From: Flavobacterium succinicans LMG 10402
GTDB taxonomy: Bacteria; Bacteroidota; Bacteroidia; Flavobacteriales; Flavobacteriaceae
Assembly: GCF_000611675.1 (NCBI RefSeq)
Contig: NZ_JATV01000014.1
Location: 1-64,000 of the forward strand
Direction: 5' to 3'
DNA: 64,000 bases
The translations under genes and the position numbers were made by a program. Under the pieces are notes generated by a model. That model was not told the DNA's origin. It was given only the letters and a program-made list of their open reading frames with translations, and did no database searches. This document shows positions 31,501-46,772 of this stretch, in pieces. The stretch's first letter is position 1. Each line of letters starts with the position of its first letter.

Positions 31501-31616
31501 ACGTGTTTGTATTGACTAAATACTCTGGACAAGATCCTGAGAACTTTAATGCAATTGATAATAACTTTTATCCAAGACCAAGAACGTATACGTTTGGTGT
31601 AAGTCTTGATTTTTAA
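28536..31616 (+). CDS. SusC/RagA-type TonB-linked outer-membrane transporter
   Basis: A 1026-residue protein with a signal peptide (LLLLPFSMLA-QN). A carboxypeptidase-regulatory-like beta domain (VTGTVLEKGTGQPIPGANV) is at about 22-95. The TonB plug follows with VGYGSVKKKDATGSV and the SusC signature IRIRGGASL...PLIIIDGVPI, and a ~22-strand barrel reaches the terminal aromatic residue (GVSLDF). It imports maltodextrins across the outer membrane with energy from TonB. susD follows after 15 bp. Confidence 0.96.
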   Translation: MKTIYKKLLFLLLLLPFSMLAQNAVTGTVLEKGTGQPIPGANVNVQGTTNGVSTDFDGKYKLSNVKKGDKIVFSFIGLRNVTVTYDGQATLNVSLDEDANELKEVVVQVGYGSVKKKDATGSVAILGAKDFNKGAIVSVDQLLSGKAAGVRITNNGGQPDSAPNIRIRGGASLSASNDPLIIIDGVPISNENPAGVSNPLSLVNPNDVESFSILKDASATAIYGVRASNGVIIITTKKGTSGAPQFNYSSNVSVGQVGKKINVMNSSDFVRFIQEYHPTRTNDLGIDDPSNTLVDDPTTPEIEGRIIADTNWQDQVYRTAISTDHNFSARANLYNRIPFRASVGYNKTQGLVKNNDFERYSYSLKMTPKFLDDNLKVDFNAKGTITTKNSVDDGGAIGGAVAMDPTKPIYDSNSIFGGFYQNTRLNSGRNQLEGATNPLALLEQRTRPEKAIRFLGNIEFDYKMPFLKDLRAIVNLGLDASEARIREVYSDNAIATYRFNQGKDPLTNYVFNPGENYLENQTSTNQTMDAYLAYNKSLTGFVTKLDIQGGYTYQNFKIDGNKDIYQYNIDSGLREIRFDVNNPSNRYYNPLNLQAYFARANFDILDKYLFTATFRADGSSLFQKDQRWGYFPAVGAAWKIKDEAFIKDSEFFQNLKLRLGWGKTGQQNITGSVGYFPSSPFFEIGDPNSQYLPGYPTYSAKAFNPDVTWEKTDNYNIGLDFELFKSGLLSGAVDFYKRNTNDLLAVVPVPSGQGLTSTFIDNVGSIESKGFEANVDVKAVQTEDFSFTIGGNIAYNYSEVTSLKGITQVQASESGLPTGTGLFLANHAVGQQPYSAWVFQQIYDESGKPIPGAFRDLNGDNKIDNEDRYYKALRPNWTYGFTTNFNYKNWDLVANFRGQIGGQVYNSRLVTTGFTDRATQGTTSALNNVLNFYDGSADPLYQNFNGNDTFSDYLLEDATFLRLDNVTLGYKFNKFVRSSSLRVYGSVNNVFVLTKYSGQDPENFNAIDNNFYPRPRTYTFGVSLDF

Positions 31617-31631
31617 TTCCTTTTAAGAGAT

Positions 31632-33203
31632 ATGAAAAATTTAAAATTATGTTTAGTAGGATTAGGTTTAATGCTACTATCCCTTAATAGTTGTTCTGAT
31701 GATCTTGATACTAAGCCGAAAGTAGAACTAGACCTAGAGCAATTGTTGCAAAGGGACCCTAATGCAATCAAAGGATTGGTGTCCAAAATTTACGGCGCTT
31801 TTGCATTATCTAGTTCTAAAGGAGCTGGAGAGTCTGATTTAGGAGCAGGAGATAATGCAGGTGAATCACCATTTTTGAGAGGGATTGTTAACCTTCAGGA
31901 ATTTACTGCCGATGGTATGAAAAACCGATGGGGAGATAATGGTTTAGATCAATTGACTACAACTTCAAACTGGGATGAGAATAATAAGTTCTTTAGATAT
32001 TTATACAACCGTATTTATTTTGTAGTACCTCAATCTAATAATCTTTTAAGTGTACTAAATAATGTTACCGTACCAGATCAAGAATTGTACAGAAGTGAAT
32101 TGCGTTTTTTACGTGCATTAGCTTACTATTATATGATCGATTGTTTTGGTAAAGGTGTAATTGCTACCGAAAATGATTTAGGTAGTGGAGTGCCTATCAA
32201 AGAGTCGACAAGGATAGAGATGTTTAACTATGTTGAAAAAGAGTTGTTAGAAATCGAGCCTATAATTCCTGTTAAAAACGAATATGGTAGAGCGAATAAA
32301 TCAGCAGTAAGAATGCTTTTGGCTAAATTGTATTTGAATGCTCAGGTATATACAGGAACTTCTAGATATAATGAAGCATTAGCTTACTCTAATAAAATCA
32401 TTAATGAGGGAGGTTATACATTAGCGCCTAAATTCGTGAGTTTATTTTCAGGAGACAACGATAAGACAGCTGCTAAAAATGAAATTATCTACGCATTAAT
32501 AGCAGATCCTATAGTGTCTCAAAGTTATGGAAATACAACTTATATTGTTAATGGTAATTTAAGTAATGTGACTATGCCACTTGCGGATTTTGGAGCGGAC
32601 TCAGGATGGCAAGGACACCGTGCTACAAAAGCTTGGTATGGTTTATTTGGTACTTCAGCAAATGATCTTACTAATGCTTCTGATGATAGAGCTAAATTAT
32701 TTTGGACTACAGGGCATAATTTTGAAATGACAGATTATAGAGAATGGGCAGACGGTTATCCAAGTGTGAAATTTAGAAATACCAATTTCCAAGGGTCTAC
32801 TGTTCCAACTACATTTTCAAACACTGATTTTCCTCTTTTCAGATTGGCTGATGTGTATTTAATGTACGCAGAATGTGTATTACGTGGAGCAACAGGTGGA
32901 AGCGCTACTCAAGCTTTAGACTATGTGAACAAAGTAAGAACTCGTTCCAATGCTTCAACTATTTCAGCTTCTAGTTTAACATTGAACTTCATTATTGATG
33001 AAAGAGCACGTGAATTAAACTTAGAAGGGCACAGAAGAACAGATTTGATTCGTTTTGGAAGATTTACAGGAGGAACGTACTTATGGCCTTGGAAAGGTGG
33101 GTCTAAAGATGGAATTTCTATTCCAGATACATACAAACTGTTTCCAATTCCTTTAACTGCGCTTCAATCTAACCCTAATTTAACACAAAACCCAGGCTAT
33201 TAA
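31632..33203 (+). CDS. SusD/RagB-type surface glycan-binding lipoprotein
   Basis: A 523-residue lipoprotein (LMLLSLNSC, lipid Cys at about 20, followed by SDDLD, fitting a surface-export signal). It has TPR-rich SusD architecture: ELRFLRALAYYYMIDCFG, an SAVRMLLAKLYLNAQ helix, and the C-terminal RARELNLEGHRRTDLIRFGRF block. It caps the SusC transporter and binds starch chains. It is co-transcribed with susC (15-bp gap) and the SusE-like gene (21-bp gap). Confidence 0.96.
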   Translation: MKNLKLCLVGLGLMLLSLNSCSDDLDTKPKVELDLEQLLQRDPNAIKGLVSKIYGAFALSSSKGAGESDLGAGDNAGESPFLRGIVNLQEFTADGMKNRWGDNGLDQLTTTSNWDENNKFFRYLYNRIYFVVPQSNNLLSVLNNVTVPDQELYRSELRFLRALAYYYMIDCFGKGVIATENDLGSGVPIKESTRIEMFNYVEKELLEIEPIIPVKNEYGRANKSAVRMLLAKLYLNAQVYTGTSRYNEALAYSNKIINEGGYTLAPKFVSLFSGDNDKTAAKNEIIYALIADPIVSQSYGNTTYIVNGNLSNVTMPLADFGADSGWQGHRATKAWYGLFGTSANDLTNASDDRAKLFWTTGHNFEMTDYREWADGYPSVKFRNTNFQGSTVPTTFSNTDFPLFRLADVYLMYAECVLRGATGGSATQALDYVNKVRTRSNASTISASSLTLNFIIDERARELNLEGHRRTDLIRFGRFTGGTYLWPWKGGSKDGISIPDTYKLFPIPLTALQSNPNLTQNPGY

Positions 33204-33224
33204 TTTTTTAAAACCAAAAACAAA

Positions 33225-34313
33225 ATGAAGAACATTTTTAAAACCACCATTTTTGCCTTCATGCTTGCGGCATTAGGCTCTTGTGAAAATGATATCGAAG
33301 CGGTTGCAACCAAGCAATCAGGAGCTAAGCTTTTAACACCAGCATCAGGAACTGAATTAGTGTTATTAGAAGCTAATCAAGATAATATTGCCACTACGTT
33401 AGTATGGGATTACAGTGATTTTGGTATTGAAACTGCAGCTTCATACACTGTTGAAATTGCAAAATCAGGAACGGACTTTAAAGAACCTATCGCAGCTGGT
33501 ACTACAGCAGATCGTTTTTTATCTTGGACGGTTAAAGAATTGAATGATGTGTTAACTAAGGCTGGGTTTGCTCCAGCTGTTCAGTCGTCAATTGATGTTA
33601 GAATTATGGGACAGTTAGGTACGTCTACTAACGCTATCAAACAATATTCTAATGTGATCACTTTAAAAGTTACGCCTTACACAGGTCTTTTAGCTTATGG
33701 TAAAACCGACTGGTTTTTAGTTGGTACAGCTGTTGTAGGGGGTTGGGATAATGATGTTGATACTACGCATCAACCTATGTTTAGAGATGGAAAAAACGCT
33801 GATAAGTATTCGTTCATAGGATTTTTTAAGGCTGGTGAATTCAAATTAATCTCTGTTAAAGGTAGCTGGGCATCTCAAGTTGGTAAAGCAAGTGCTACTG
33901 AAATTGAAATTAAAGATAATGCTGGAGCATTTGTCATCCCAACTGAAGGGTACTACAAATTTATGTTTGATACCAAAGCTTTAACGTATACCTTAGTGCC
34001 TTACACAGCTTCCTTAAAAACATATACTACCATTGGTATGATTGGTACTGCAACAGCAGGTGGATGGGATGCTGATCAAGACATGACAAAGTCTACATTT
34101 GATCCTCACGTTTGGACCGTAAAAATTGACTTAACTAAAGCTGAAACTAAATTCAGAGCTGAAAACGCTTGGGATACTAGTTGGGGAGGTACCACTGCTT
34201 TCTCTTCTATTGGTGGAACTGGCGATAACATTCCAGTAGCTGGGAAATCAAAATTCATTGTGTATTTCAGTGACATTGACGGAAGTTATTCTATGATTCC
34301 AAATCAAAAATAA
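33225..34313 (+). CDS. SusE/SusF-like starch-binding lipoprotein
   Basis: A 362-residue lipoprotein (FMLAALGSC, lipid Cys at about 20, followed by ENDIE). The N-terminal Ig-like SusE domain starts around GAKLLTPASG. Two related starch-binding modules follow, each with a W-x-x-G-T-A-x-x-GGWD-type start (about 163 and 272), the pattern of SusE/SusF carbohydrate modules. It probably holds starch at the cell surface near SusCD. It is third gene of the rightward arm and is followed by a terminator before the amylase gene. Confidence 0.9.
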   Translation: MKNIFKTTIFAFMLAALGSCENDIEAVATKQSGAKLLTPASGTELVLLEANQDNIATTLVWDYSDFGIETAASYTVEIAKSGTDFKEPIAAGTTADRFLSWTVKELNDVLTKAGFAPAVQSSIDVRIMGQLGTSTNAIKQYSNVITLKVTPYTGLLAYGKTDWFLVGTAVVGGWDNDVDTTHQPMFRDGKNADKYSFIGFFKAGEFKLISVKGSWASQVGKASATEIEIKDNAGAFVIPTEGYYKFMFDTKALTYTLVPYTASLKTYTTIGMIGTATAGGWDADQDMTKSTFDPHVWTVKIDLTKAETKFRAENAWDTSWGGTTAFSSIGGTGDNIPVAGKSKFIVYFSDIDGSYSMIPNQK

Positions 34314-34330
34314 TTTTAGTTCATTTATTA

Positions 34331-34363
34331 AAAAGGGTTGTCTCTAAGGCAGCCCTTTTTTTC
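34331..34363 (+). terminator. Terminator or attenuator after the SusE-like gene
   Basis: AAAAGGGTTG / CAGCCCTTTT stem (one G-U pair) with a T-run. It lies between the SusE-like and amylase genes, so it may lower expression of the amylase relative to susCDE. Confidence 0.8.
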
Positions 34364-34386
34364 TTTAATCCAAACTTTAAATAATA

Positions 34387-37251
34387 ATGAGAAAAAAATT
34401 ACTTATACTGATGCTTTTGGTATGTTGGAGTGTTTTTTCACAGCAGCAAACAGCCACTCACACCATTAGTCCCGCCACTTTTGAAGAAACCACGTCGATT
34501 ACTATTACTGTCGATGGTTCTAGTATCAACGAAGCGACTTGGGGAGTTACAGGAAATGCGCTATATATGTGGGCTTGGTCCTATGATAGCAATGATGCTA
34601 ATGAAAGGGATTGCCCAACCAATGGTACATGGACGAATTCTAACGAAGCCAATCGTTTTACTTACAATGCTGTATCGAATACTTATACGCTAACTTTTGT
34701 TCCTAATGTGTTTTTTAACCGTAATGGGCTTGGAAGAATAGGCTTTTTAATCAAGGCTAAAGACGGAACAGGTGACAAAAAATCGCAAAACATACTTGCT
34801 GAAGTAGGAACGTTTCAAGTTACTTTGAATACTCCGGCTCAAAACAGCACCACGATTTTATCTTCAGGAGGTAGCTTAAATATTACGGCAACCAATACCA
34901 ATGGCAATGCTTCCTATACTTTAAAATCCAATGGCACTGTTCTTAATACAGCTGCTGCTACAGCAAGCTATTCCTTTAATCATGCCAATATTACTGGAAA
35001 TCAAAACTATGAATTAGAAGTATTGCAAGGCACAACGACTATAGTAAAGAAGTTTTCTGTTGTCGTGAATCCATCCGTGGTTTCAGAAACGATACCTGCT
35101 GGTTTAGTGGATGGTATCAACTATAATGCAAATGATGCTACTAAAGCTACTTTGGTGTTAGATGCACCTTTAAAAGATTTTGTATACGTAGCTGGTAGTT
35201 TCAACAACTGGCAACCTACAAATGCGTATGCTATGAAGAAGGATGCTACTGCTGGTTCTACCAAATTTTGGTTGGAATTGACGGGTCTTACTGCAGGGAC
35301 CAATTATACTTATCAATATTGGGTAGGAAAAGAAGCTCCTTTAGCCAATTCACCAAAATTGGTCAAAACGGCCGATCCATATTCTACTTTGGTGCTTTCT
35401 CCTTTTGATGATGGTGGTATTCCATCTGCATCTTTTCCAAATATTCCGGCATATCCAACAGGTCAAGAGCGTGAAGTGACTTGGTTCAAAACAGGTCAAA
35501 CTCCGTTTGCATGGAGTCTAGCTACTACTAATTTTGAAAAACCAACCAAGGAAAAATTGGTAGTGTACGAAGTACTAGTTCGTGATTTTGATTCCAGAAG
35601 AAATTATCAGGATTTAATTGATAAAATAGATTATTTCAAAAATCTGAAAGTAAATGCCATTCAATTGATGCCTGTAATGGAATTTGAAGGTAATGAAAGT
35701 TGGGGGTACAACACTTCGTTTCATATGGCGTTGGATAAGTATTATGGTACTCCAGAAAAATTGAAAGAATTTATCGATTTGTGTCACCAAAATGGTATCG
35801 CTGTAATTTTAGATATTGCATTGAATCACGCTTTTGGTCGCAACCCAATGGTGCGTATGTGGATGAATGATCCTGAAAACGATGGATGGGGAACTCCAAC
35901 AGTTGAAAACCCATATTTTAATACGGTAGCAAAACACAGTTACAGTGTAGGTGAAGATTTTAATCATCAGCTACCACGTACACAGAACTATGTAAAACGA
36001 GTAGTAGAACATTGGATCAAAGAATTTAAAATCGACGGTTTCCGTTGGGATTTAACCAAAGGATTTACTCAAAATGCGCAGGGATCAGATGCACAAACCG
36101 ATGCGTATCAACAAGACCGTGTAGATGTTTTAAAAAAATATGCTGATTTTTCTTGGGCTACTGATCCTTCTCATTACGTGATTTTCGAGCACTTAGGGAC
36201 AGATACTGAAGAAAAGGAATGGGCAAACTACAAGGATGGGATTATGCTTTGGGGTAAAATGACAGAACAGTACAACGAACTTTCTATGGGATGGCCTAAT
36301 AAAAACATCTCAAGAATGAGCAGCGCAAGTCGTGGTTTTACCAAACAACGATTAATGGGCTATGCCGAAAGTCATGATGAAGAACGCTTGATGTACAAAA
36401 ATTTACAGTTTGGTAATAGTACGAATGCTGCTCATAACGTAAAAACATTGAATGTTGCTTTATCTAGAATGTCTGCTATTGGCGCGGTATCTCTTTTGGT
36501 GCCTGGACCAAAAATGATTTGGCATTTTGGTGAATTAGGTTGGGAATCTTCCATTTTTACTTGTAATAATGGAACAGTAAATGATCAATCGGCTACTATT
36601 GTTGGAGATTGTAAATTAGATACCAAACCACAACCACAATGGACAGGGAATTGGTTAGGGAATTCCGAGAGAAGTAAGATCTATAATGACTGGGCGAAAA
36701 TGATTAGTTTAAAAATTAATGAGCCTGTTTTTTTAGGAGATGTGACTATTTCTAGTACTAATAGTGTAACGCCAAATATCAAAATTACCAATGCAACATT
36801 AGCAAGTACAGCACTTAAAGATGTCTTGATTGTGGCTAATTTTGGAGTAGTAGCAACTAGTGTTGCAACTGGTTTTCAATATACAGGTACTTGGTATGAT
36901 TTGATGAATAATTCAGAGCTCAATGTGACCAATGTTAATCAAACAATTACATTGCAACCAGGAGAGTTTAAAATTCTAGGCAACAAAACCGCTACTTTAG
37001 CAATTGAAGATTATGAAAAAGAAGCTTCAATTAGATTGTATCCAAATCCAGCTTCCAACTATTTTACCTTAAGTACAGTAACTACTAAAGTTGAAATTTT
37101 CACGATTTCGGGCCAAAAAGTGAAGCAGTTTGAAGGTGCCGAAGCTGTGGATCAACAATTCTCAATTAGTGATTTGAACAAAGGGATGTATTTGGTTAAA
37201 GCACAAAATGCTGAAAAACAAACGCAGGTTTTAAAATTGATTAAAAACTAG
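34387..37251 (+). CDS. Surface GH13 alpha-amylase with type IX secretion C-terminal domain
   Basis: A 954-residue protein with a signal peptide (LLVCWSVFS-QQ). N-terminal Ig-like and CBM48-like modules follow (FVYVAGSFNNWQP at about 260), then a GH13 barrel with nucleophile D555 (FRWDL), acid E601 (FEHLG) and D664 (SHDEER). The last ~80 residues are a type A sorting domain (LYPNPASNYF...SGQKVKQF...MYLVKA..LKLIKN), so the enzyme should be exported by the type IX system and sit on or leave the cell surface. It is the functional counterpart of SusG, which is a lipoprotein in Bacteroides. Confidence 0.94.
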   Translation: MRKKLLILMLLVCWSVFSQQQTATHTISPATFEETTSITITVDGSSINEATWGVTGNALYMWAWSYDSNDANERDCPTNGTWTNSNEANRFTYNAVSNTYTLTFVPNVFFNRNGLGRIGFLIKAKDGTGDKKSQNILAEVGTFQVTLNTPAQNSTTILSSGGSLNITATNTNGNASYTLKSNGTVLNTAAATASYSFNHANITGNQNYELEVLQGTTTIVKKFSVVVNPSVVSETIPAGLVDGINYNANDATKATLVLDAPLKDFVYVAGSFNNWQPTNAYAMKKDATAGSTKFWLELTGLTAGTNYTYQYWVGKEAPLANSPKLVKTADPYSTLVLSPFDDGGIPSASFPNIPAYPTGQEREVTWFKTGQTPFAWSLATTNFEKPTKEKLVVYEVLVRDFDSRRNYQDLIDKIDYFKNLKVNAIQLMPVMEFEGNESWGYNTSFHMALDKYYGTPEKLKEFIDLCHQNGIAVILDIALNHAFGRNPMVRMWMNDPENDGWGTPTVENPYFNTVAKHSYSVGEDFNHQLPRTQNYVKRVVEHWIKEFKIDGFRWDLTKGFTQNAQGSDAQTDAYQQDRVDVLKKYADFSWATDPSHYVIFEHLGTDTEEKEWANYKDGIMLWGKMTEQYNELSMGWPNKNISRMSSASRGFTKQRLMGYAESHDEERLMYKNLQFGNSTNAAHNVKTLNVALSRMSAIGAVSLLVPGPKMIWHFGELGWESSIFTCNNGTVNDQSATIVGDCKLDTKPQPQWTGNWLGNSERSKIYNDWAKMISLKINEPVFLGDVTISSTNSVTPNIKITNATLASTALKDVLIVANFGVVATSVATGFQYTGTWYDLMNNSELNVTNVNQTITLQPGEFKILGNKTATLAIEDYEKEASIRLYPNPASNYFTLSTVTTKVEIFTISGQKVKQFEGAEAVDQQFSISDLNKGMYLVKAQNAEKQTQVLKLIKN

Positions 37252-37345: not shown

Positions 37346-39253
37346 TTACACTTTTTCATTCTTTATTTCTTCCACAATTTCTGGATTCAGTAAGGTGGAA
37401 GTATCCCCGAAATTAGAAAAATCCCCTTCGGCAATTTTGCGTAATATTCTTCGCATGATTTTTCCAGAACGTGTTTTCGGCAAACCGTTTACAAATTGAA
37501 TTTTGTCAAGTTTCGCAATCGGACCAATGTGATCCGAAATGTATTGATTGATTTCTTTACTCAAGTTGTCGCGATCACGGTATTCGCCAACTTCTTTTAA
37601 TATCACAAAACCGTATAATGCATTTCCTTTTATGTCGTGTGGGAATCCTACAATAGCTGATTCGGCCACCGCTGGATGCTCATTGATCGCGTCTTCAATT
37701 GGTGCGGTACCCAAATTGTGCCCCGAAACAATAATGACATCATCTACACGACCTGTGATTCTATAGTAGCCTACTTCATCTCTAAGTGCGCCATCGCCCG
37801 TAAAATATTTCCCTGGGAAAGCACTGAAATAGGTTTCTTTATATCGCTTATGATCGCCCCAAATGGTTCTAGCAATACTCGGCCATGGGTATTTGATACA
37901 TAAACTTCCAGTAACTTGATTGTCCTCAATCTCATTTCTTTTTTCATCCATCAAAACGGCTTGAATCCCAGGAAGAGGTAGTGTCGCATAGGTGGGTTTA
38001 GTTGGTGTTACAAAAGCTATGGGCGAAATCAAAATCCCACCGGTTTCGGTTTGCCACCATGTGTCTACCACCGGGCATCTTTTGCCTCCTACGTGGTCGT
38101 TGTACCAGTGCCAAGCTTCTTCGTTAATAGGTTCTCCTACAGAACCAATCACTTTTAACGACGCTAAAGGGTATTTTTGTACATACTCAAGATTTTCTTT
38201 GGCTAGCGCTCTAATTGCAGTAGGGGCGGTATAAAAATGAGTGACCTTGTGTTTTTCGATGATTTCCCAAAAGCGACTAAAATTAGGATACGAGGGTACG
38301 CCTTCAAAGATTACGGTAGTTGCACCGTTCAATAATGGACCATACAAGATGTAGGAATGTCCTGTGATCCAACCAATATCGGCAGTACACCAAAAAACAT
38401 CATTGTCTTGGTAATTGAATACGTTTTTGAATGTGTAAGCGGTATACACCATGTAGCCAGCTGTAGTGTGTACCATTCCTTTGGGTTTTCCTGTGGAGCC
38501 AGAGGTGTACAATATAAATAGTGGGTCTTCCGCATCCATGATTTCGGCCACGTTCGAATCCGAGGCTTTGTCCAATAAAGGTTGTAACCATAAATCTCTA
38601 CCAGTTTGCATGTTCACCTCACTATGAATGCGTTTGGCCACGAGTACTTTGGCCACCGATGGACATTTTTTTAAGGCTTCATCAATAATTCCTTTTAGAT
38701 CAATGGTTTTGTTACCACGATAACCACCATCAGAAGTAATGACCATTTTACATTCGCTATCGTTAATTCGAGCCGCTACCGCCGTGTCTGAGAATCCTGC
38801 GAAAACTACAGAATGTATAGCACCAATTCGAGCGCAAGCCAAAACCGAAACGGCCAATTCTGGGATCATAGGTAGATAGATACACACTCGGTCTCCTTTT
38901 TGTATGCCTTGATCAAGCAATACGTTGGCCATTTTATTGACGCGTTCCGAAAGTTCGTTGTAGCTAATGTGAAGGGCATCTTCATTGGGATCATTGGGTT
39001 CAAAAATGATGGCGGTTTGTTTTCCGTTTCTGGCCAAATGGCGATCAATACAGTTTTTGGTGATATTCACTTTGGCATTGACAAACCATTTGATATCGGC
39101 TTCTGCCATATTAAAATCAATCACTTTGTCCCACTCTTGGTACCAAACAAAATTTTCTGAGGCTATTTTGTCCCAGAATTTTTTAGGTTCACGGATCGAT
39201 TTTTTATAATGTTTAAAGTATTCTTCTAAGGTGTTGATTTTGTAGTAGCTCAT
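37346..39253 (-). CDS. acs: Acetyl-CoA synthetase (acetate-CoA ligase)
   Basis: A 635-residue ANL-family enzyme. ATP/AMP motif YTSGSTGKPKG, core DTWWQTETGG, hinge block YFTGDGALRDEVGYYRITGRVDDVI, and C-terminal GLPKTRSGKIMRR with the acetylatable Lys. It forms acetyl-CoA from acetate, ATP and CoA. It is last in a leftward run of porin, MHS-type transporter, small membrane proteins, sensor kinase and response regulator, 21 bp after the response regulator, so it is likely co-regulated with acetate sensing or uptake. Confidence 0.96.
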   Translation of the reverse strand: MSYYKINTLEEYFKHYKKSIREPKKFWDKIASENFVWYQEWDKVIDFNMAEADIKWFVNAKVNITKNCIDRHLARNGKQTAIIFEPNDPNEDALHISYNELSERVNKMANVLLDQGIQKGDRVCIYLPMIPELAVSVLACARIGAIHSVVFAGFSDTAVAARINDSECKMVITSDGGYRGNKTIDLKGIIDEALKKCPSVAKVLVAKRIHSEVNMQTGRDLWLQPLLDKASDSNVAEIMDAEDPLFILYTSGSTGKPKGMVHTTAGYMVYTAYTFKNVFNYQDNDVFWCTADIGWITGHSYILYGPLLNGATTVIFEGVPSYPNFSRFWEIIEKHKVTHFYTAPTAIRALAKENLEYVQKYPLASLKVIGSVGEPINEEAWHWYNDHVGGKRCPVVDTWWQTETGGILISPIAFVTPTKPTYATLPLPGIQAVLMDEKRNEIEDNQVTGSLCIKYPWPSIARTIWGDHKRYKETYFSAFPGKYFTGDGALRDEVGYYRITGRVDDVIIVSGHNLGTAPIEDAINEHPAVAESAIVGFPHDIKGNALYGFVILKEVGEYRDRDNLSKEINQYISDHIGPIAKLDKIQFVNGLPKTRSGKIMRRILRKIAEGDFSNFGDTSTLLNPEIVEEIKNEKV

Positions 39254-39274: not shown

Positions 39275-39634
39275 TTATAATAATGCTTGTACTTGTTCCA
39301 CTAATTTTTTTATCGAAAAAGGTTTTAAGAGGTATAAATCAGCGCCCAATGCAAGTCCTTTTTCAATGTCTTTTTCTTTGTTTTTGGCCGATAAAAAGAT
39401 CACTTTGCAATGTTGGAGTTTATCGTTTTTTTTGATTTGTCGTAAAGTTTCATAACCGTCTACCAAAGGCATCATCACATCTAAGATGATCACATCGGGT
39501 AATTGGTTTTGTACTATATCTAGGGCTTCTTGGCCGTCTCTGGCAACAAAAACCTCAAAATTATGTTTCTTAAAGGTGTATTCTAACGACATTAGAATGT
39601 TGGGTTCGTCATCCACTAAGAGTATCTTTTTCAT
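39275..39634 (-). CDS. Receiver-only response regulator
   Basis: A 119-residue protein that is a single REC domain: acid pocket D8/D9, phospho-acceptor D52 (IILDVMMP), S82 and K104 (LLKPF). There is no DNA-binding or other output domain. It overlaps the sensor kinase gene by 4 bp and is followed by acs, so it is surely the kinase's partner. With no output domain it must act through another protein or as a phosphate sink. Confidence 0.94.
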   Translation of the reverse strand: MKKILLVDDEPNILMSLEYTFKKHNFEVFVARDGQEALDIVQNQLPDVIILDVMMPLVDGYETLRQIKKNDKLQHCKVIFLSAKNKEKDIEKGLALGADLYLLKPFSIKKLVEQVQALL

Positions 39635-42339
39635 GATGTTGCAGCTTCAGTTGTGTTATACTTGGGTAATGAAAAATAGAAGTTTACGCCTTGTTCACTC
39701 GAATTTTCTACCCATATTTTTCCTTTATGATGTTCAATGATTTGTTTACAAATGGCCAATCCCAGCCCGCTTCCTATTGGTTTTCGAACGTTTTGATTTT
39801 TGGATTGGTAAAATTTATCAAAGATAGATTCGTACTCTTCCTCATTGATTTTGTTTCCGTTGTTGTGGATACACACCAATACTAAGGTTGGGTTTTCGGT
39901 TATAGTGATGGTTATTTTTCCGTTGGGATTAGGACAGAATTTCATCGCATTCGACAGTAGATTGTGAACCACTTGTACCATGCGCTCTTCATCATAAAAA
40001 GCACGGATTTCCTTTTTTTGTGGATCAAATACTACTTGAATATTATTGCTTTGTACTACATGTTGTAATGGATGTAATGTTTTAATTATGGTTTGTATGA
40101 GATCATTTTTAGACAAATAAATTTTTTGTTTGCCGGTTTCAAATTTTTCTAAATCCAAGATTTTGTCAATGAGACGGTTCAAACGATCGGATTCTGAAAT
40201 AATGTTTTGTAGAAAGCGTTGACGTAATTCTTTAGGAATTTCTTCGTCATCAATGAGTATTTCACTTGCGGCTCGTATGGCGGTAATTGGAGTTCGTAAT
40301 TCATGAGTAACGGTGTCCAAAAATTCATTTTTTTGTGCATCTTTTTTCAAAAGTTCCAAGTTGGCCTCATGTAATTGCTGTGATATTTTTTGGAGAGCAT
40401 GGGTTGTTTCAGTCAGTTTTTTGTTGACAATAATGTTTTCTTGTGATTCCTCAAGGATACGCAACACTTCGGGTAAAGCTATTTTTTCTTCTTTGACCAC
40501 ACTAGCAATTAAAATCTTGGATGAAGCCGTTCCGATATGTCCCGTTAAAAGATTTTCGGCAAATTTGATGAATCTCGCATCGGCCGTAGTGATGTTTTGA
40601 TCAATGTTGTACTTGATGTGAAAAAGCGATAAGGCTCTTTTTGTTCTTTCAATCCCCAAAAAGCGTTCTAATATTTTTTGAATATCCGCTACATAAGCAA
40701 TCCCTTTCCAAACAAAGGCATTTTCAAGATGACCACTGTATTTATTGATGTCTACAAACATTTCGGCATAGTTTCTTTCTCTGTAATTTCCTTTAAAACT
40801 AACGGATACCGCTAAATATGAAAGGGTATTGAATAATAAACTCCAAAATACTGCTTGCGGAATCGGATCCAAATAATCCAAGCCAAATAGTTGAAAAGGT
40901 TTTAATAGCGTTAGATTCCAAGGGCCGTTTTGTACGAATGAACTATTTGTTTCTTGTAAGCCCAATGCAAAAGGTATGATTAAGGTATAGGCACAAGTGA
41001 GAAATCCAATAAGTATTCCTGTAATCGCGCCTTTACTTGAACCTCTTCTCCAAAACAGAGCACCAAAAAAGGCAGGAGCCAATTGAACAATGACCACAAA
41101 CGATACTAAGCCAATGGAATAGAGTGAGTAATCTAAAATAAAAACTTTGTAAATGATATAAGCCAAAACAATCAAGGTGAAAATACCTATTTTTCGGCTG
41201 TTGACGATGCGACGGCTGTTCTCTTTTTGTTGATTTTCTAACGAACCAATAAAGCCGTAGGGAATCAATAAATTGTTACTGACCATAGTAGCCAAGGCGA
41301 TAGACGAAACAATAATCATGGAAATCGCTGCCGAAAATCCACCCAAAAACACTAATAACGTCAATGTGTCGTTTTGGAACAATTGCGGAATTAATAAGGA
41401 ATAGGTATCGGAATTTAAATTTTGTCCTCGAAATAAAATACTGCCACCCCACGCAATTGGAAACACAAAGATATTAAACAGCAAGAGGTATAACGGGAAC
41501 AGCCACGTAGCGGTTTTGATATGTTTGCTATGATTGTTCTCTACAACACTTGTGTGAAATTGTCTGGGCAGCAAAAACATGGCAAACATAGAAACAAGAC
41601 AAAGAAAAAACCAATTGAGGGCATTTTCAATAGATCCGATGGTGTTTTTTTGGTTAAAATCTGGAAGAGAAAGAGCTTTGTTGTAAATGTCATCAAAACC
41701 ATTAAAGACAAAATAAGTCACATAAATACCTAATAGTAGAAAGAAAACCAACTTTAAAATCGATTCTATGGCCACTGCCAGAACGATACCACGTCTTTTC
41801 TCAGAGGCATCTACATAACGGGTGCCGTAGTAAGAAGTAAATAATCCTAAAGCCAAACAAACATAGGTAGTCGTGTCAAAAAAAATATTTTCAGTGGATT
41901 GGGTTCGGGTAATAACATGAAAGGTGTCTGATATCGATTTGAGTTGCAAAGCAATGTAGGGAATGATGCCGACCACACACACTATAGTAACCAAAGCCCC
42001 CAAAAACCTACTGTTACCATATCGGAGTGAAATGAAATCAGCAATACTTGAAATTTTGTTGACTTTTGTTATTTGAATAATTTTTTTCAAAATCAACATC
42101 CAAGCCGGAATGATGATGATTGGGCCAATGTAAATAGGAAGATAGCTCAACCCAGATTTGGCGGCTACCCCAATGCTTCCATAGTAGGTCCATGCCGTGC
42201 AATATACCGCAAGCGACAAGGAATATACATACGGATTGTTGGTCCATTTGTAGTGTTGTTTTTTTTCGGCCCAGTGGGCAATAAAAAACAAAATGGAAAC
42301 ATACACCGTTAGAACCAGTAAAATGCCAAGGCTATTCAT
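39631..42339 (-). CDS. SSF-transporter-like sensor histidine kinase (CrbS/CbrA type)
   Basis: A 902-residue protein. The first ~530 residues are a sodium:solute symporter domain with about 13 membrane helices (for example AWTYYGSIGVAAKSGLSYLPIYIG). A STAC-like linker (about 600-640, TASSKILIASVVKEEKIALPEVL) and a coiled segment follow. The HisKA site has H679 in THELRTP, and the HATPase domain has NLLSNAMKFCPN and GSGLGLAICKQI. Known relatives sense or transport acetate or histidine and control acs or carbon use. The first 8 bp overlap the upstream 64-residue gene, and the end overlaps the response regulator by 4 bp. Confidence 0.94.
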   Translation of the reverse strand: MNSLGILLVLTVYVSILFFIAHWAEKKQHYKWTNNPYVYSLSLAVYCTAWTYYGSIGVAAKSGLSYLPIYIGPIIIIPAWMLILKKIIQITKVNKISSIADFISLRYGNSRFLGALVTIVCVVGIIPYIALQLKSISDTFHVITRTQSTENIFFDTTTYVCLALGLFTSYYGTRYVDASEKRRGIVLAVAIESILKLVFFLLLGIYVTYFVFNGFDDIYNKALSLPDFNQKNTIGSIENALNWFFLCLVSMFAMFLLPRQFHTSVVENNHSKHIKTATWLFPLYLLLFNIFVFPIAWGGSILFRGQNLNSDTYSLLIPQLFQNDTLTLLVFLGGFSAAISMIIVSSIALATMVSNNLLIPYGFIGSLENQQKENSRRIVNSRKIGIFTLIVLAYIIYKVFILDYSLYSIGLVSFVVIVQLAPAFFGALFWRRGSSKGAITGILIGFLTCAYTLIIPFALGLQETNSSFVQNGPWNLTLLKPFQLFGLDYLDPIPQAVFWSLLFNTLSYLAVSVSFKGNYRERNYAEMFVDINKYSGHLENAFVWKGIAYVADIQKILERFLGIERTKRALSLFHIKYNIDQNITTADARFIKFAENLLTGHIGTASSKILIASVVKEEKIALPEVLRILEESQENIIVNKKLTETTHALQKISQQLHEANLELLKKDAQKNEFLDTVTHELRTPITAIRAASEILIDDEEIPKELRQRFLQNIISESDRLNRLIDKILDLEKFETGKQKIYLSKNDLIQTIIKTLHPLQHVVQSNNIQVVFDPQKKEIRAFYDEERMVQVVHNLLSNAMKFCPNPNGKITITITENPTLVLVCIHNNGNKINEEEYESIFDKFYQSKNQNVRKPIGSGLGLAICKQIIEHHKGKIWVENSSEQGVNFYFSLPKYNTTEAATS

Positions 42340-42526
42340 CGTATTTTTTAATTAATATAAAGCTCATGACAATCGAAAAAAACCAAACCATGAAAATATA
42401 GACATAAATAATTGGTAAACCAGCAATTGCATCGGTGCTGTCAAATAATAATAGTAACGGAAAATTTAGCGCCAAAAACAGTACTAGGCTAAAAATTAGA
42501 AATTTCTGCTCGTGTCTTTTTTTCAT
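42332..42526 (-). CDS. Small two-helix membrane protein paired with the SSF sensor
   Basis: A 64-residue protein with two hydrophobic helices (about 10-27 and 38-58) between charged ends. Its stop overlaps the sensor-kinase start by 8 bp, so it is translated with it. Small two-helix proteins of DUF485 or DUF3311 type are encoded next to many SSF transporters. By size, position and pattern this may be the equivalent subunit for the SSF-kinase fusion; family membership was not confirmed. Confidence 0.8.
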   Translation of the reverse strand: MKKRHEQKFLIFSLVLFLALNFPLLLLFDSTDAIAGLPIIYVYIFMVWFFSIVMSFILIKKYDE

Positions 42527-42610: not shown

Positions 42611-42838
42611 TTATCGTTTGGAATGGTCATATTCACCCATGAGCGAATAATAGCCAAATATTCCCATGCCCAAGACTACTAAGGGTGTGAGGACAAACAG
42701 TATGATGATGCCAAACACCAAATCATCTTGTTTTCCTGAAGCAATTTTGGGTAAGCCAAACTCAAAAATACAAAAATAGGCGGCTGCTACAGCCAAGGCA
42801 ATCCATACCATACCTAGAACTCTTTTTATCTGATCCAT
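42611..42838 (-). CDS. Small membrane protein (DUF6814-like)
   Basis: Two predicted membrane helices in 75 residues (about 7-26 and 39-62) and a charged tail (GEYDHSKR). The ATG at 42838 (MDQIKRVLGM) is preferred; an upstream in-frame start at 42880 would overlap the transporter gene by 32 bp. It follows the MHS-type transporter gene by 10 bp and is probably co-translated with it. Short proteins of this kind recur beside MFS transporters in Bacteroidota, so an accessory role is plausible but not shown. Confidence 0.78.
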   Translation of the reverse strand: MDQIKRVLGMVWIALAVAAAYFCIFEFGLPKIASGKQDDLVFGIIILFVLTPLVVLGMGIFGYYSLMGEYDHSKR

Positions 42839-42848
42839 AATGTTAATT

Positions 42849-44381
42849 TTAAACGTGTTTATTGGTTTTTGAATTGTCAAGATAAATCATTCCGATCACA
42901 AAACAGACCGAAGCAATAATGATGGGATACCACAATCCTTCAAGATAGTAATTCACATCGCCTGCTTCTTTGGCATTGGTCACCAAATAAGTTGAGATGG
43001 CAGGTAGTAGTCCTCCAAATATTCCATTCCCCACGTGATAAGGCAATGACATGGAAGTATAACGAATTTTTACAGGAAACATTTCGACTAAAAAAGCGGC
43101 AATTGGACCGTACACCATAGTTACAAATAGCACTTGGACAAAGATGTAAAAAACCAACATCCACATATCGGTGTTGTTTATGGTAAGGGTTGTTTTGATG
43201 TCTGCTTTCGGTTTTCCATCTACAATTTTAGCCTGACCATTTTCTAGAGGAATGGTTTTGATTTCGACCCATTTTGTGCCATCTTCAAAAACTTTTGTGG
43301 TGGTATATATGGAATCTAGGGCTTGTTTGTTGGTTTTGGTTTCGGCTACTATCGTAGTTTGGTCTACCAGTTCCGTTTTGTTTTTGATGTTGGTGGTTTC
43401 AAACATGGCTTGGTAAATCGGGCGATATAAAAGAATCGCGATTAACATGCCGCCCATCATGATGTATTTTCTACCCAATTTGTCACTGAGCCATCCAAAA
43501 AATATGAAGAAAGGTGTACCTAATATCAAGGCAATTCCAAGTAATTGATCAACTTGCGAGGAGTCGATGGTCATTACGGTTTTTAAGAAACTCATGGCAT
43601 AAAATTGCCCAGTATACCAAACGACACCTTGTCCCATTGTGGCGCCAAATAGTGCTAATAATACAAACTTCAAATTGTAGCGATTTCCAAAACTTTCTTT
43701 TAAAGGATTGGTACTCGTTTTTCCTTCGGATTTGGCTTTGGCGAATACCGGAGATTCGTCCATGTTTTTTCGAATGAGATATGAAATTCCTACCATTACG
43801 ATGGATACCCAAAACGGTACTCTCCAGCCCCAATTATCAAATTCTTCTGGGGTTAATACGTTTCTTGTGGCCAAAATAACCATTAATGAAATGAACAGAC
43901 CAACGGTAGCTGTGGTTTGAATCCATGACGTCCAATAACCTCGTTGTCCCACTGGGGCATGCTCGGCTACATAAGTGGCAGCTCCACCATATTCGCCACC
44001 TAAGGCTAATCCTTGTAACATTCTTAGAATAAGAACCAATAAAGGCGCCATAAAGCCAATGGTTTCGTAGCTCGGAATGCAACCGATCAAAAAGGTAGCG
44101 CCTCCCATTAAAAGTAAGGTGACCATGAAGGTGTATTTGCGTCCGATAATATCGCCTAATCTCCCGAAGAAAAGAGCTCCGAACGGGCGTACTACAAAGC
44201 CAACAGCAAAGGTGGCTAGGGTGGCTAAGAAGGCCGCAGTTGGGTTGTCGGCTGGGAAAAATTTGGTAGAAATCACCACAGCCAAACTGCCGAAGATGTA
44301 AAAGTCGTACCACTCGATCATGGTACCCATGGAGGAAGCGGAAATTACTTTCCAGATTCCTTTTGTTGATTTGTTGCTCAT
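42849..44381 (-). CDS. MHS-type MFS transporter (metabolite:H+ symporter)
   Basis: A 510-residue, 12-helix transporter. The start WKVISASSMGTMIEWYDFYIFG and motif FGRLGDIIGRKYTF are typical of the metabolite-proton symporter group (citrate, alpha-ketoglutarate, proline and similar substrates). About 75 extra hydrophilic residues (about 325-400, rich in T, K and D) sit in a loop of the second half and make it longer than usual (~430). The neighbours (porin, SSF sensor, acs) suggest a small carboxylate; the substrate is not proved. Confidence 0.9.
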   Translation of the reverse strand: MSNKSTKGIWKVISASSMGTMIEWYDFYIFGSLAVVISTKFFPADNPTAAFLATLATFAVGFVVRPFGALFFGRLGDIIGRKYTFMVTLLLMGGATFLIGCIPSYETIGFMAPLLVLILRMLQGLALGGEYGGAATYVAEHAPVGQRGYWTSWIQTTATVGLFISLMVILATRNVLTPEEFDNWGWRVPFWVSIVMVGISYLIRKNMDESPVFAKAKSEGKTSTNPLKESFGNRYNLKFVLLALFGATMGQGVVWYTGQFYAMSFLKTVMTIDSSQVDQLLGIALILGTPFFIFFGWLSDKLGRKYIMMGGMLIAILLYRPIYQAMFETTNIKNKTELVDQTTIVAETKTNKQALDSIYTTTKVFEDGTKWVEIKTIPLENGQAKIVDGKPKADIKTTLTINNTDMWMLVFYIFVQVLFVTMVYGPIAAFLVEMFPVKIRYTSMSLPYHVGNGIFGGLLPAISTYLVTNAKEAGDVNYYLEGLWYPIIIASVCFVIGMIYLDNSKTNKHV

Positions 44382-44413: not shown

Positions 44414-45796
44414 TTATAAATAGATTTGTAATTGCACTATAAATTCGCCTTTACTGTTTTCTTTTACGCCATCTGCGCTATACACTGGTCGAGTAGAATA
44501 TTGAGCTGTAATTTTTGAATGTTGCCCATCGAGTAAAAAGTTGGTGCCGATATCAAATTGTGTACTTGATTTTTGTAAGGCATCAAAATCTTTATAGGTG
44601 ATGGCGCCAAAGGGTTGAATTCGCACATTTGGTTTTTCCACTTTGCTAGGCAATAAAAAACCGGCTTGCGTATACCAAATAGAGCCGCTTCCAATGGTAG
44701 GTTGTGCATTACCTGGTCCTGCCATGGCTCTGTTTCCTGTAAATGAAGGGTCGGCAACGCCTACATTCATGATGCCGATATTGCGTAGATAGTTAGGGCC
44801 AAAATCATAATTATAATAAACACTATATGCGGTAACGGCCATTTTATGTTCTTTTTTGCCTACTGGCAAGTCCAAGAAGACATCGGTAGAGAAAAGATTC
44901 ATGTCGTGCTTTTGAAGTTGAGCGTTGACAGAGGATTTCGTGGCGTTGGGTGCTCTATAAAAACCTGCGCCAATGTTGAATACTTTTTTGGTTCCTACGT
45001 ATGACCCCACTTTAAAAGGTAATAGATTAGATTCTTGGTCTAAGAATTGGTATTCAAAATAACCTGCCGTAGCCCATTTTGCGTTACCGTTGTTGTCTAC
45101 TGCAACAGCATTGGAGGCATTTGTAACATTGGTTGGCACTACATTGGTCGCAAAGGGTTTGTTGTGGCTTAGTCGGTATTCCAACTTGCCGTATTTTCCT
45201 TTCGCGAATAATCCCATTTGTCGGGCAAATTGATCAGAGTTTTCAATTAATGGCCAATTGAATATTGGGGCGTCAATGGTCAAGAAGTTTAGTGTAGAAG
45301 CCATGGTTTCTCTTGAAAGTCCCATGTAGTAGTGTAAGCCTCCACCTAGTGACAAACTGAATTTTTTGTCTTTTTGTGGTAAAACCAAGGCGTATTCATT
45401 CCAAGCGTCATGAAAAAACAACCCCGGTTTTTTACCTGCTCCGTAACCCCCAGTGCCTGTTGTACCTGATGCACCACCACTGGTGAAGGACTGGTTGTTG
45501 ATTCCAAAGTGTGTCACAATCATGTAACGCGGTGAGATTTGGGAGTAGGCCAAGAAACGCAATCTACGGTTCCCAATATCAGTGGCGCTTGAGGCTGCTT
45601 CATTGCCCACCATGGTTCCAGGATTCATTTGCGAAGAGCGAAACCAAATTTGATTCCACACAATAAATCGCATGTATTTCGATCCAGCATCGTTGAGGTT
45701 GAATTTCATACCACTCGTGTATTCACTTGAGCCTTGGGCAAAGCTAAATAGAGATGTTAGTAGGAGTAGGAGTAACAGTGCACTAATTTTTTTCAT
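44414..45796 (-). CDS. Outer-membrane porin-like protein
   Basis: A 460-residue protein with a signal peptide (LLTSLFSFA-QG). The rest is long amphipathic strands with Gly and aromatic residues, ending in an aromatic/hydrophobic strand (EFIVQLQIYL), as expected of a beta-barrel. It is first in the run porin, transporter, small protein (33-bp gap to the transporter), so it probably lets the same substrate through the outer membrane. It carries no TonB plug. Confidence 0.85.
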   Translation of the reverse strand: MKKISALLLLLLLTSLFSFAQGSSEYTSGMKFNLNDAGSKYMRFIVWNQIWFRSSQMNPGTMVGNEAASSATDIGNRRLRFLAYSQISPRYMIVTHFGINNQSFTSGGASGTTGTGGYGAGKKPGLFFHDAWNEYALVLPQKDKKFSLSLGGGLHYYMGLSRETMASTLNFLTIDAPIFNWPLIENSDQFARQMGLFAKGKYGKLEYRLSHNKPFATNVVPTNVTNASNAVAVDNNGNAKWATAGYFEYQFLDQESNLLPFKVGSYVGTKKVFNIGAGFYRAPNATKSSVNAQLQKHDMNLFSTDVFLDLPVGKKEHKMAVTAYSVYYNYDFGPNYLRNIGIMNVGVADPSFTGNRAMAGPGNAQPTIGSGSIWYTQAGFLLPSKVEKPNVRIQPFGAITYKDFDALQKSSTQFDIGTNFLLDGQHSKITAQYSTRPVYSADGVKENSKGEFIVQLQIYL

Positions 45797-45968
45797 ATAG
45801 CTACAAATTATGGGTTACTAATGTCTATGTGATTGTTTTAATTTGAACAAAAGGAGTTTAAATTCAATGACATAGAAAATTAAATTTTTGTTTGATTTTC
45901 GTGAAGCCAAATTCCAATTTAATTTTTGATTAGCAAATAATGCTATAGATAAGTGTAAAATAGTATAG

Positions 45969-46388
45969 TTAATCCTTAAAACGCTCCCATTTAATGAGCA
46001 TAAATTTATCGCCCAACTCAGTAATGATCATACCAGCACCTGTGAGTTGGTTTTTGTTTTTAATGTATTCTATTAATTCAGTGTGATTTAGGATTTTGTA
46101 GGTAGGATGGTAGTTTGCGTGTGAAGGTTTTTTGATATTGTATGATTTTACCCAGTTGCTAATTGTAACATGGGATACGCCAAGTATGCGTTCAATTTCT
46201 CGATAGCTTAGGCCTTCTAGATATAATTGCAATGCTTTACAAACATAATACTCGTCAATTTTTTTTCCAAGCTTGTTTACTGTGAAGCTATACTTGCATT
46301 TTTTACAAGTATATCTTTGTTTGTTGGCTATGATTCCGCTTTTGATCAGATGGTCGCTCAAGCATTTCGGACAGCTAAAAAGTTCCAT
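45969..46388 (-). CDS. Orphan zinc-ribbon/HTH protein related to IS1 InsA
   Basis: A 139-residue protein. The N-terminal zinc ribbon has C6/C9 and C28/C31 (CPKC, CKKC) and is followed by an HTH (YLEGLSYREIERILGVSHVTISNWVKSY), both as in IS1-type InsA. There is no DDE catalytic domain, no second frame and no terminal inverted repeat nearby. Instead it ends in a ~45-residue tail with a strand-rich block (GAGMIITELGDKFMLIKWERF). The frame is intact. It reads as a domesticated DNA-binding protein, perhaps a regulator of the adjacent porin-to-acs locus. A decayed transposon remnant is the alternative. Confidence 0.82.
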   Translation of the reverse strand: MELFSCPKCLSDHLIKSGIIANKQRYTCKKCKYSFTVNKLGKKIDEYYVCKALQLYLEGLSYREIERILGVSHVTISNWVKSYNIKKPSHANYHPTYKILNHTELIEYIKNKNQLTGAGMIITELGDKFMLIKWERFKD

Positions 46389-46654
46389 ATATATTTAATT
46401 TGCATAAATATAGTAATTTTGCAACATTGTAAATATATTTTTAAAAAAATGAAGCTTATTTTTTTAGAATTCCATGTTTTTCTAGTCAAAAAATCAGTTT
46501 ATAGCAAAAAAATGAAGAATGTTCGATTATGCTTCGTTGCTTTTGATTAGCTCACAGCGTTGCGTTTTTTTAAATTTTGTATAAAAAAGGAGAATCGCTA
46601 GTGCGAGAACAGCCGAAAATAGCGAAATGGAAGTTCCATGAGATTATAAAACAA
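46389..46654. other. A/T-rich gap without genes
   Basis: About 270 bp of very A/T-rich DNA between the orphan HTH gene and the tRNA terminator. Only chance reading frames are seen; it should hold the promoter of the HTH gene. Confidence 0.6.
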
Positions 46655-46683: not shown

Positions 46684-46756
46684 TGGTACCTCCAGGGATC
46701 GAACCAGGGACACATGGATTTTCAGTCCATTGCTCTACCATCTGAGCTAAGGTACC
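46684..46756 (-). tRNA. tRNA-Phe (anticodon GAA)
   Basis: Acceptor stem GGTACCT/AGGTACC, D arm GCTC-AGATGGTA-GAGC, anticodon arm ATGGA-CTGAAAA-TCCAT giving GAA, and T arm CCTGG-TTCGATC-CCTGG. Discriminator A is at 46684. CCA is not encoded. Confidence 0.96.
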
Positions 46757-46772
46757 TTGCTTGTTGCGGGTG

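Follow-up and report, generated by a model that had tools for sequence, protein, structure and literature searches.

A 64,000-nucleotide stretch of Flavobacterium succinicans LMG 10402 (contig NZ_JATV01000014.1, positions 1 to 64,000; the window, whose positions serve as coordinates throughout) carries a minus-strand gene cluster in which a protein resembling InsA of the insertion sequence (IS) IS1 is encoded ahead of a two-component system whose receiver has no output domain. The order of the cluster is InsA-like gene, porin, MFS transporter, DUF6814, an open reading frame (ORF) of 64 aa, SSF sensor kinase, receiver and acs, and the whole is inferred to be one operon because of its spacing and common strand. 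With a probability of roughly 0.62, this is an operon for the uptake and activation of acetate (short-chain carboxylates) under a two-component system in which two separate proteins together make up the response regulator. The SSF kinase would sense substrate or metabolic state and phosphorylate the bare receiver, which would in turn act on the C-terminal domain of the InsA-like protein, with its WERF end, and so alter its hold on the operator. The InsA-like protein would bind tandem and inverted sites and control both the operon and itself, such that porin, transporter, kinase, receiver and acs would be induced together. Comparison of sequences makes the InsA-like protein very probably the DNA-binding regulator of the operon; that kinase and receiver act through it is probable, and that the receiver touches its C-terminal domain directly has about an even chance. 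The output of bare receivers is comparatively little understood, and this proposal gives one of them a concrete partner, site and interface.

The receiver is encoded at 39275..39634 (minus strand). Response_reg spans residues 4-115 of its 119 in Pfam, and a marginal PDE8A_N match that overlaps it (30.6 bits vs 29.6) is taken as receiver-like. D8, D9, D52 and K104 are invariant, and position 82 (S82 in the window) is S or T, across 137 aligned receivers whose genome or locus carries the InsA-like gene (the genomes are not all distinct). An earlier, sequence-only reading of this DNA had placed an SSF kinase and then a bare 119-residue receiver at 39275-42339, with acs next; Pfam and NCBIfam bear out these positions, and both the full phosphorylation site and the lack of an output domain hold. 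A CrbS/R locus with a lost output domain, which its wording might suggest, does not survive comparison with relatives. Among 145 kinase loci, a motif search finds an adjacent receiver of 107-164 aa at 141 and its output holds one more (L223), so that 142 keep an adjacent bare receiver. The three others are a locus that reaches the contig edge (L160), one with an interrupted kinase frame and a receiver present downstream of it (L141), and one from another class with no receiver adjacent (L128). No receiver in this set is long enough to contain an output domain. The bare receiver is the rule in the kinase family and not a local loss, and a loss confined to the window is ruled out; what needs explaining is therefore the identity of the receiver's partner and not the fate of an output domain.

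The phosphate of the kinase could instead pass to a DNA-binding response regulator encoded elsewhere in the genome, perhaps a LuxR-type one. The known partners of CrbS are LuxR-type, and no search for unlinked regulators was made here; the retention of the bare receiver beside nearly every kinase argues against this explanation and makes it improbable. The pair of kinase and bare receiver is also found in other Bacteroidota classes (L123-L127) and on plasmids of Cupriavidus and Paracoccus, with no InsA-like gene beside it. A PAS protein comes after the bare receiver in L127. An RNase_T exonuclease-domain protein, a possible alternative partner, takes that place in L126 (2943-5093) and in Paracoccus L274 (9043-11160).

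The sequence-only reading had expected some other protein to carry the signal to the promoter and suggested a co-occurrence analysis for DNA-binding proteins that travel with the locus. The expectation is kept here but was incomplete, as it missed the InsA-like candidate 3.6 kb upstream of the kinase in the same cluster; the co-occurrence analysis supports this candidate. In the class sample of 395 genomes (E<=1e-60), 28 have both InsA-like protein and kinase, 2 the InsA-like protein only, 2 the kinase only and 363 neither (Fisher 3e-38, with genomes treated as independent despite their relatedness). This table joins two separate searches of 395 genomes each, with the same handles where matches are listed, and its "neither" cell includes eight genomes with weak InsA-like matches (1e-20 to 1e-35), none with a kinase. 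In a Flavobacteriaceae sample of 199 genomes, about one per genus, the InsA-like protein is present in 21 (E<=3.2e-60) and the identical 21 carry the kinase (E<=1e-60); weaker InsA-like matches, in G064 (1e-35) and in eight genomes at 1e-4 to 1e-3, were kept out. Within the genus (81 genomes) the counts are 31 and 32. The extra kinase is without its first 119 residues, in a draft of 590 contigs, and a guess from the absent start is that this kinase (G229) is cut by a contig end. The phylum sample (296 genomes; G418 and the interrupted InsA-like matches of G448 and G459 kept out of the tables) gives an InsA-like protein in all 21 kinase genomes of the class and, in G434, an InsA-like protein without kinase. 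Outside the class, to which G448 and G459 are also external, 11 kinase genomes show no InsA-like match at E<=1e-10, and G554 has the InsA-like protein (E 5e-52) without kinase. Both genes are present in G668 and G722, on different contigs.

Gene order is similarly constant. The InsA-like gene comes first, with porin, permease, kinase, receiver and acs after it in the same orientation, in all 20 Flavobacteriaceae loci retrieved, each from a different genus; in L052 the porin was not matched. A set restricted to Flavobacterium and to entries under the names Flavobacteriaceae, Flavobacteriales or Bacteroidetes holds 565 InsA-like relatives, and in 75 of the best 80 the kinase is downstream on the same strand; of the five exceptions, four stop within 3.2 kb and one is an apparent relic in F. 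psychrophilum. What varies around the InsA-like gene is the transporter: MFS with DUF6814, DUF4212 with an SSS permease, or a YaaH/SatP type. In Flavobacterium L072-L074 porin and permease are gone and a 186-aa protein, matching the YaaH/SatP family in L072, where its domain was checked, stands between InsA-like gene and kinase; the InsA-like gene remains with kinase, receiver and acs. All three transporter types would fit uptake of acetate or similar acids, and an acetate-type substrate is suggested because of these transporters together with acs.

The InsA-like gene (45969..46388, minus strand; supported by Pfam, NCBIfam, a predicted model and co-occurrence) encodes 139 aa. The protein has a zinc ribbon (C6, C9, C28, C31), a helix-turn-helix at about 46-86 and a C-terminal beta-alpha-beta-beta region at 93-136 that ends in WERF (134-137), in a model with a mean predicted local distance difference test score (pLDDT) of 86. 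All 18 members of the family examined match the IS1 transposase and IS1/IS1595 zinc-ribbon models at E<=1e-5. The window protein scores 80.9 against the IS1 transposase model, below the cut-off of 100, and the match stops at position 121 of 199. No transposase catalytic (DDE) frame follows the gene; the porin gene stands there. Foldseek with the predicted model returns nothing at E<=0.001, and a PDB sequence search no convincing relative (best E 0.015). VIA-align aligns it with helix-turn-helix and zinc-ribbon structures, Z never exceeding 7.0, and, with the full-length model as query, residues 91-139 with KCTD5 at Z about 5.

One account of such a gene is that it is an IS1 remnant sitting at the operon head by chance, and it would draw on the homology to IS1 transposases and on the inverted repeat copies that flank the gene. 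At kinase-bearing loci, however, the frame is intact, about 140 codons long and 58-84% identical in product to the window's protein; at the 20 Flavobacteriaceae loci the InsA-like protein shares 66-73% identity with that of the window, more than the 50-55% of the kinase. The window's genome holds a single match to it. Conservation and fixed place rule the remnant out, leaving it a vanishingly small probability. The protein is taken to be a domesticated InsA. A more tentative suggestion, at less than even odds, makes it the DNA-binding half of an ancient class-wide split regulator, derived from the IS1 InsA repressor, with operators that are exapted ends of the same insertion sequence. If so, a whole transposon control circuit, gene and flanking sites, would have been captured under a two-component system, and a transposon repressor with its sites could turn into a signalling output stage, one that would account for the control of acetate uptake and activation in many Bacteroidota. 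Seven InsA-like matches (E 1e-20 to 3e-25) with open frames of 130-154 aa occur in G600, L242 among them, and the SSF kinase is not found in this genome at E<=1e-60; as G600 hints, other InsA-derived regulators may exist in the class.

The presumed tandem operator lies at 46390..46423 (minus strand), ahead of the InsA-like gene, where two copies of a 15-bp unit near TGCTAAATTANTATA recur with a period of 19 bp and end 1 bp before the start codon. Across 149 InsA-like loci (not all distinct genomes, some Flavobacterium genomes being present twice under different ids), a regular expression finds the unit pair in 128, exactly 1 bp from the start codon in 113 of them, and neighbouring units are 19 bp apart in 119 of 120 intervals (119 loci). 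On a matrix of 22 training sites, the window's own among them, the window site scores 40.4 bits and the next best in the window 8.6; accepted tandem sites score 28 to 45. The site is also the sole window match within three mismatches, with 0.07 expected. At up to two mismatches, all 16 genomes tested that carry both InsA-like gene and kinase have it beside the gene, 15 of them on the upstream side and one on the downstream side; none of four genomes that have the gene but no kinase does, and in one of these, G554, the upstream side is cut off. Genomes without the InsA-like gene have a two-mismatch match in two cases out of six and none in the other four. Nothing comparable turns up at eight kinase loci without the gene, six from other classes and two in-class, where the top score is 8.8 bits (L123). 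The operon of G830 is split, and its kinase half carries a separate tandem site 207 bp before its porin; it scores 28.5 bits, shuffles reach at most 5.7, and the locus is outside the training set. A search for a regulon beyond the operon gives one convincing tandem site per gene-bearing genome, apart from the split G830.

On the other side of the gene, an inverted copy of one unit lies directly 3' of the stop codon (45943..45968, approximate limits, plus strand). The inverted half-unit is present within 40 bp of the stop codon at 131 of the 149 loci, where shuffles expect 3.1 and the opposite orientation gives 4; outside Flavobacterium the count is 30 of 44. This pattern was devised after the sequences had been seen, with the shuffles and the opposite orientation as its controls. 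Scanning downstream with the upstream-unit matrix yields few sites (reverse unit scoring at least 8 at 16 of 149 loci, forward at none), and a repeat search of the window does not pair the upstream and downstream copies as an inverted repeat. With a tandem site upstream and an inverted half-unit downstream, the InsA-like gene is thus bracketed, as far as the letters go, by inverted copies of its presumed site.

A connection between this DNA-binding protein and the receiver is suggested by the fate of each in genomes that lack the other. The C-terminal WER(F/L) is intact in 140 of 140 InsA-like loci where the kinase is seen (126 distinct proteins; L175, L195, L207 and L210, which end before the kinase, are left out) and altered in all five without kinase. 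It is kept also in L216 (G668), in which InsA-like gene and kinase are unlinked. Kinase-bearing relatives from the same genus retain WER where a kinase-less member does not (G345 and G882 beside G434, G768 beside G881). Four kinase-less InsA-like proteins have changed at 35 of 64 conserved C-domain positions and 14 of 140 in the DNA-binding part, compared with 8 of 704 and 11 of 1543 in 44 controls; these pooled counts treat related sequences as independent and leave out the relic L203. In the other direction, of 61 conserved receiver positions 12 are broken in G632 and 19 in G739, two genomes that have no InsA-like gene, against at most 8 (median 1) in 44 control receivers. Among the residues lost are K23, R32, N/S85 and S107, near-invariant in the 137 receivers with an InsA-like gene.

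Could the C-terminal domain instead serve cooperativity or dimerisation at the tandem sites, decaying after loss of the operator and not of the receiver? The domain could have such a role because the kinase-less G434, G881 and G064, all without WERF, also lack a good operator, the tandem site being missing or degenerate. The F. psychrophilum relic points the same way, since it retains its operator and most of the C-domain, with 2 of 16 positions changed there and 0 of 35 in the DNA-binding part. The explanation leaves unaccounted for the change in receivers without an InsA-like gene, and kinase-less G554, its WERF altered, still has the inverted unit after the stop codon (its upstream side is lost to the contig end). 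This explanation is unlikely, if the likeliest of the rivals. The apparent relic itself (L203 9966-10423, Flavobacterium psychrophilum DSM 3660) consists of an InsA-like gene with a tandem operator of 43.3 bits and an inverted unit; no kinase follows within its 20-kb locus, from which alone the absence is judged, and the gene has no start codon at the expected place.

Further observations weigh against a split regulator. Co-occurrence partly reflects linkage, because linked genes are lost together. The divergent receivers of G632 and G739 belong to one family and may represent a single event. Both genomes have permease, kinase and receiver (G632 the porin too) with neither InsA-like gene nor operator, and the kinase-receiver pair can therefore work otherwise. 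G064 has a distant InsA-like gene (E 1e-35) beside permease and acs, and no kinase. Near the unlinked kinase-receiver-acs genes of G668 and G722 there is no operator. In 26 genomes a reversed control pattern is matched six times, and most sites found at two mismatches elsewhere than beside the InsA-like gene are probably due to chance. Finally, the strict tandem expression misses 11 of 44 non-Flavobacterium loci; matrix scores cover five of these (L116, L118, L216, L221, L230), at 31 to 45 bits.

Several of these points feed an explanation in which the InsA-like protein is a local autoregulator independent of the two-component system, and the receiver acts elsewhere, on a transcription factor, on an enzyme or as a phosphate sink. 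G064, with its acetate genes and no kinase, fits it, as do the kinase and receiver without InsA-like gene in G632, G739 and 11 genomes of other classes, and the PAS and exonuclease-domain proteins that trail the receiver in other lineages. Against it, InsA-like gene and kinase are present near one-to-one in the class and even where they are unlinked (G668, G722), and conserved residues are lost on both sides, from InsA-like proteins where the kinase is missing and from receivers where the InsA-like gene is. An independent autoregulator appears unlikely, a little more so than a C-domain for cooperativity.

How does such a system compare with those already described? The sequence-only reading had seen the layout of CrbS/R-acs loci, and part of this stands: as in CrbS/CrbR (MxtR/ErdR), an SLC5-type transporter is fused to a histidine kinase, and acs and acetate permease genes are linked. 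CrbS-type kinases (CrbS/MxtR) include a PAS domain and a fused receiver (PMC7918813), and CrbR is a LuxR-family activator (PMC5715377), in line with the DNA-binding domain that the sequence-only reading had given it. The window kinase, in contrast, has no PAS domain and no fused receiver, its adjoining regulator lacks a LuxR domain, and the first gene of the cluster encodes a protein of transposase origin; kinases of this kind occur, moreover, in other classes and on the Cupriavidus and Paracoccus plasmids. The locus is not assigned to CrbS/R because three defining features fail: PAS domain, fused receiver and adjoining LuxR regulator.

CbrA/CbrB, with a kinase of the SLC5-STAC type, resembles the window in the SLC5 part, in the lack of a fused receiver and in the small ORF, cbrX, ahead of the kinase, which PMC9100948 describes as co-transcribed with and translationally coupled to cbrA. 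CbrB, unlike the window's regulator, has an effector domain; CbrA contains a PAS domain and is an importer of histidine. Another bare receiver, McvR of Xanthomonas campestris, reportedly interacts with some DNA-binding proteins (PMC8995066); its role as described there is broad, whereas here one dedicated partner would share the receiver's operon.

IS1 InsA offers the likeness of a zinc ribbon and helix-turn-helix and of inverted sites on both sides of the gene, those of the window being recognised by sequence only; InsA is a repressor of its own promoter, and this promoter and the left end partly overlap (PMC12428005). The window gene differs in having no transposase frame, with most of the catalytic region missing, in a conserved C-terminal domain that ends in WERF and in being a fixed operon member. 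The operator position is compatible with self-repression by the InsA-like protein. Two points make repression that the receiver relieves seem somewhat likelier than activation: the site adjoins the start codon, and IS1 InsA represses a promoter overlapping its left end. Among the matches listed from open-licence papers, none dealt with an InsA-like regulator in such an operon or with this combination.

The kinase (39631..42339, minus strand, 902 aa) comprises an SSF/SLC5 transporter part at about 1-514, a coiled coil, HisKA (669-736) and HATPase_c (783-893). Its SSF hit in Pfam is sub-threshold (18.5 bits, cut-off 22.8); the predicted model (mean pLDDT 74, predicted template-modelling score 0.59) matches solved SLC5 transporters, namely human SGLT2 (E 5.4e-11), SGLT1 and the sodium/iodide symporter, as well as solved histidine-kinase cores. 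Four helices at 550-614 of the model occupy the place of a STAC domain, and no STAC model is among the Pfam and NCBIfam matches. Neither a PAS domain nor a C-terminal receiver is seen in the Pfam scan and predicted model; in a plasmid-borne kinase of P. aeruginosa used for comparison (L275), the same Pfam scan reveals both. Kinase and receiver genes overlap by 4 nt and acs follows (37346..39253, minus strand, 635 aa), its product matching AMP-binding and ACAS_N in Pfam and acetate--CoA ligase above cut-off in NCBIfam. A second acyl-CoA synthetase adjoins receiver or acs in many related operons; none lies between the two in the window.

The remaining members of the cluster are all on the minus strand. 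The outer-membrane porin-like protein (44414..45796, 460 aa) is named from similarity to the ExtI porin, at 48 bits against an NCBIfam cut-off of 150, and from its conserved place in relatives. The MFS transporter of the metabolite:H+ symporter type (42849..44381, 510 aa) is recognised by Pfam and NCBIfam, and the DUF6814 small membrane protein (42611..42838, start codon picked by eye) by Pfam. The 64-aa small membrane ORF (42332..42526) overlaps the kinase start by 8 nt and has a relative ahead of the kinase at 20 of 20 Flavobacteriaceae loci. Its relatives precede the kinase in many operons, other classes included, and cbrX of Pseudomonas is a possible analogue. Scans for sigma-70 promoters and terminators give promoter-like sites no commoner than in shuffles. 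Just upstream of the operon there is an apparent tRNA gene (46684-46757, minus strand), picked by eye. Inspection by eye also suggests a SusC/SusD-type locus past acs on the opposite strand (28536-37251), with a protein resembling alpha-amylase.

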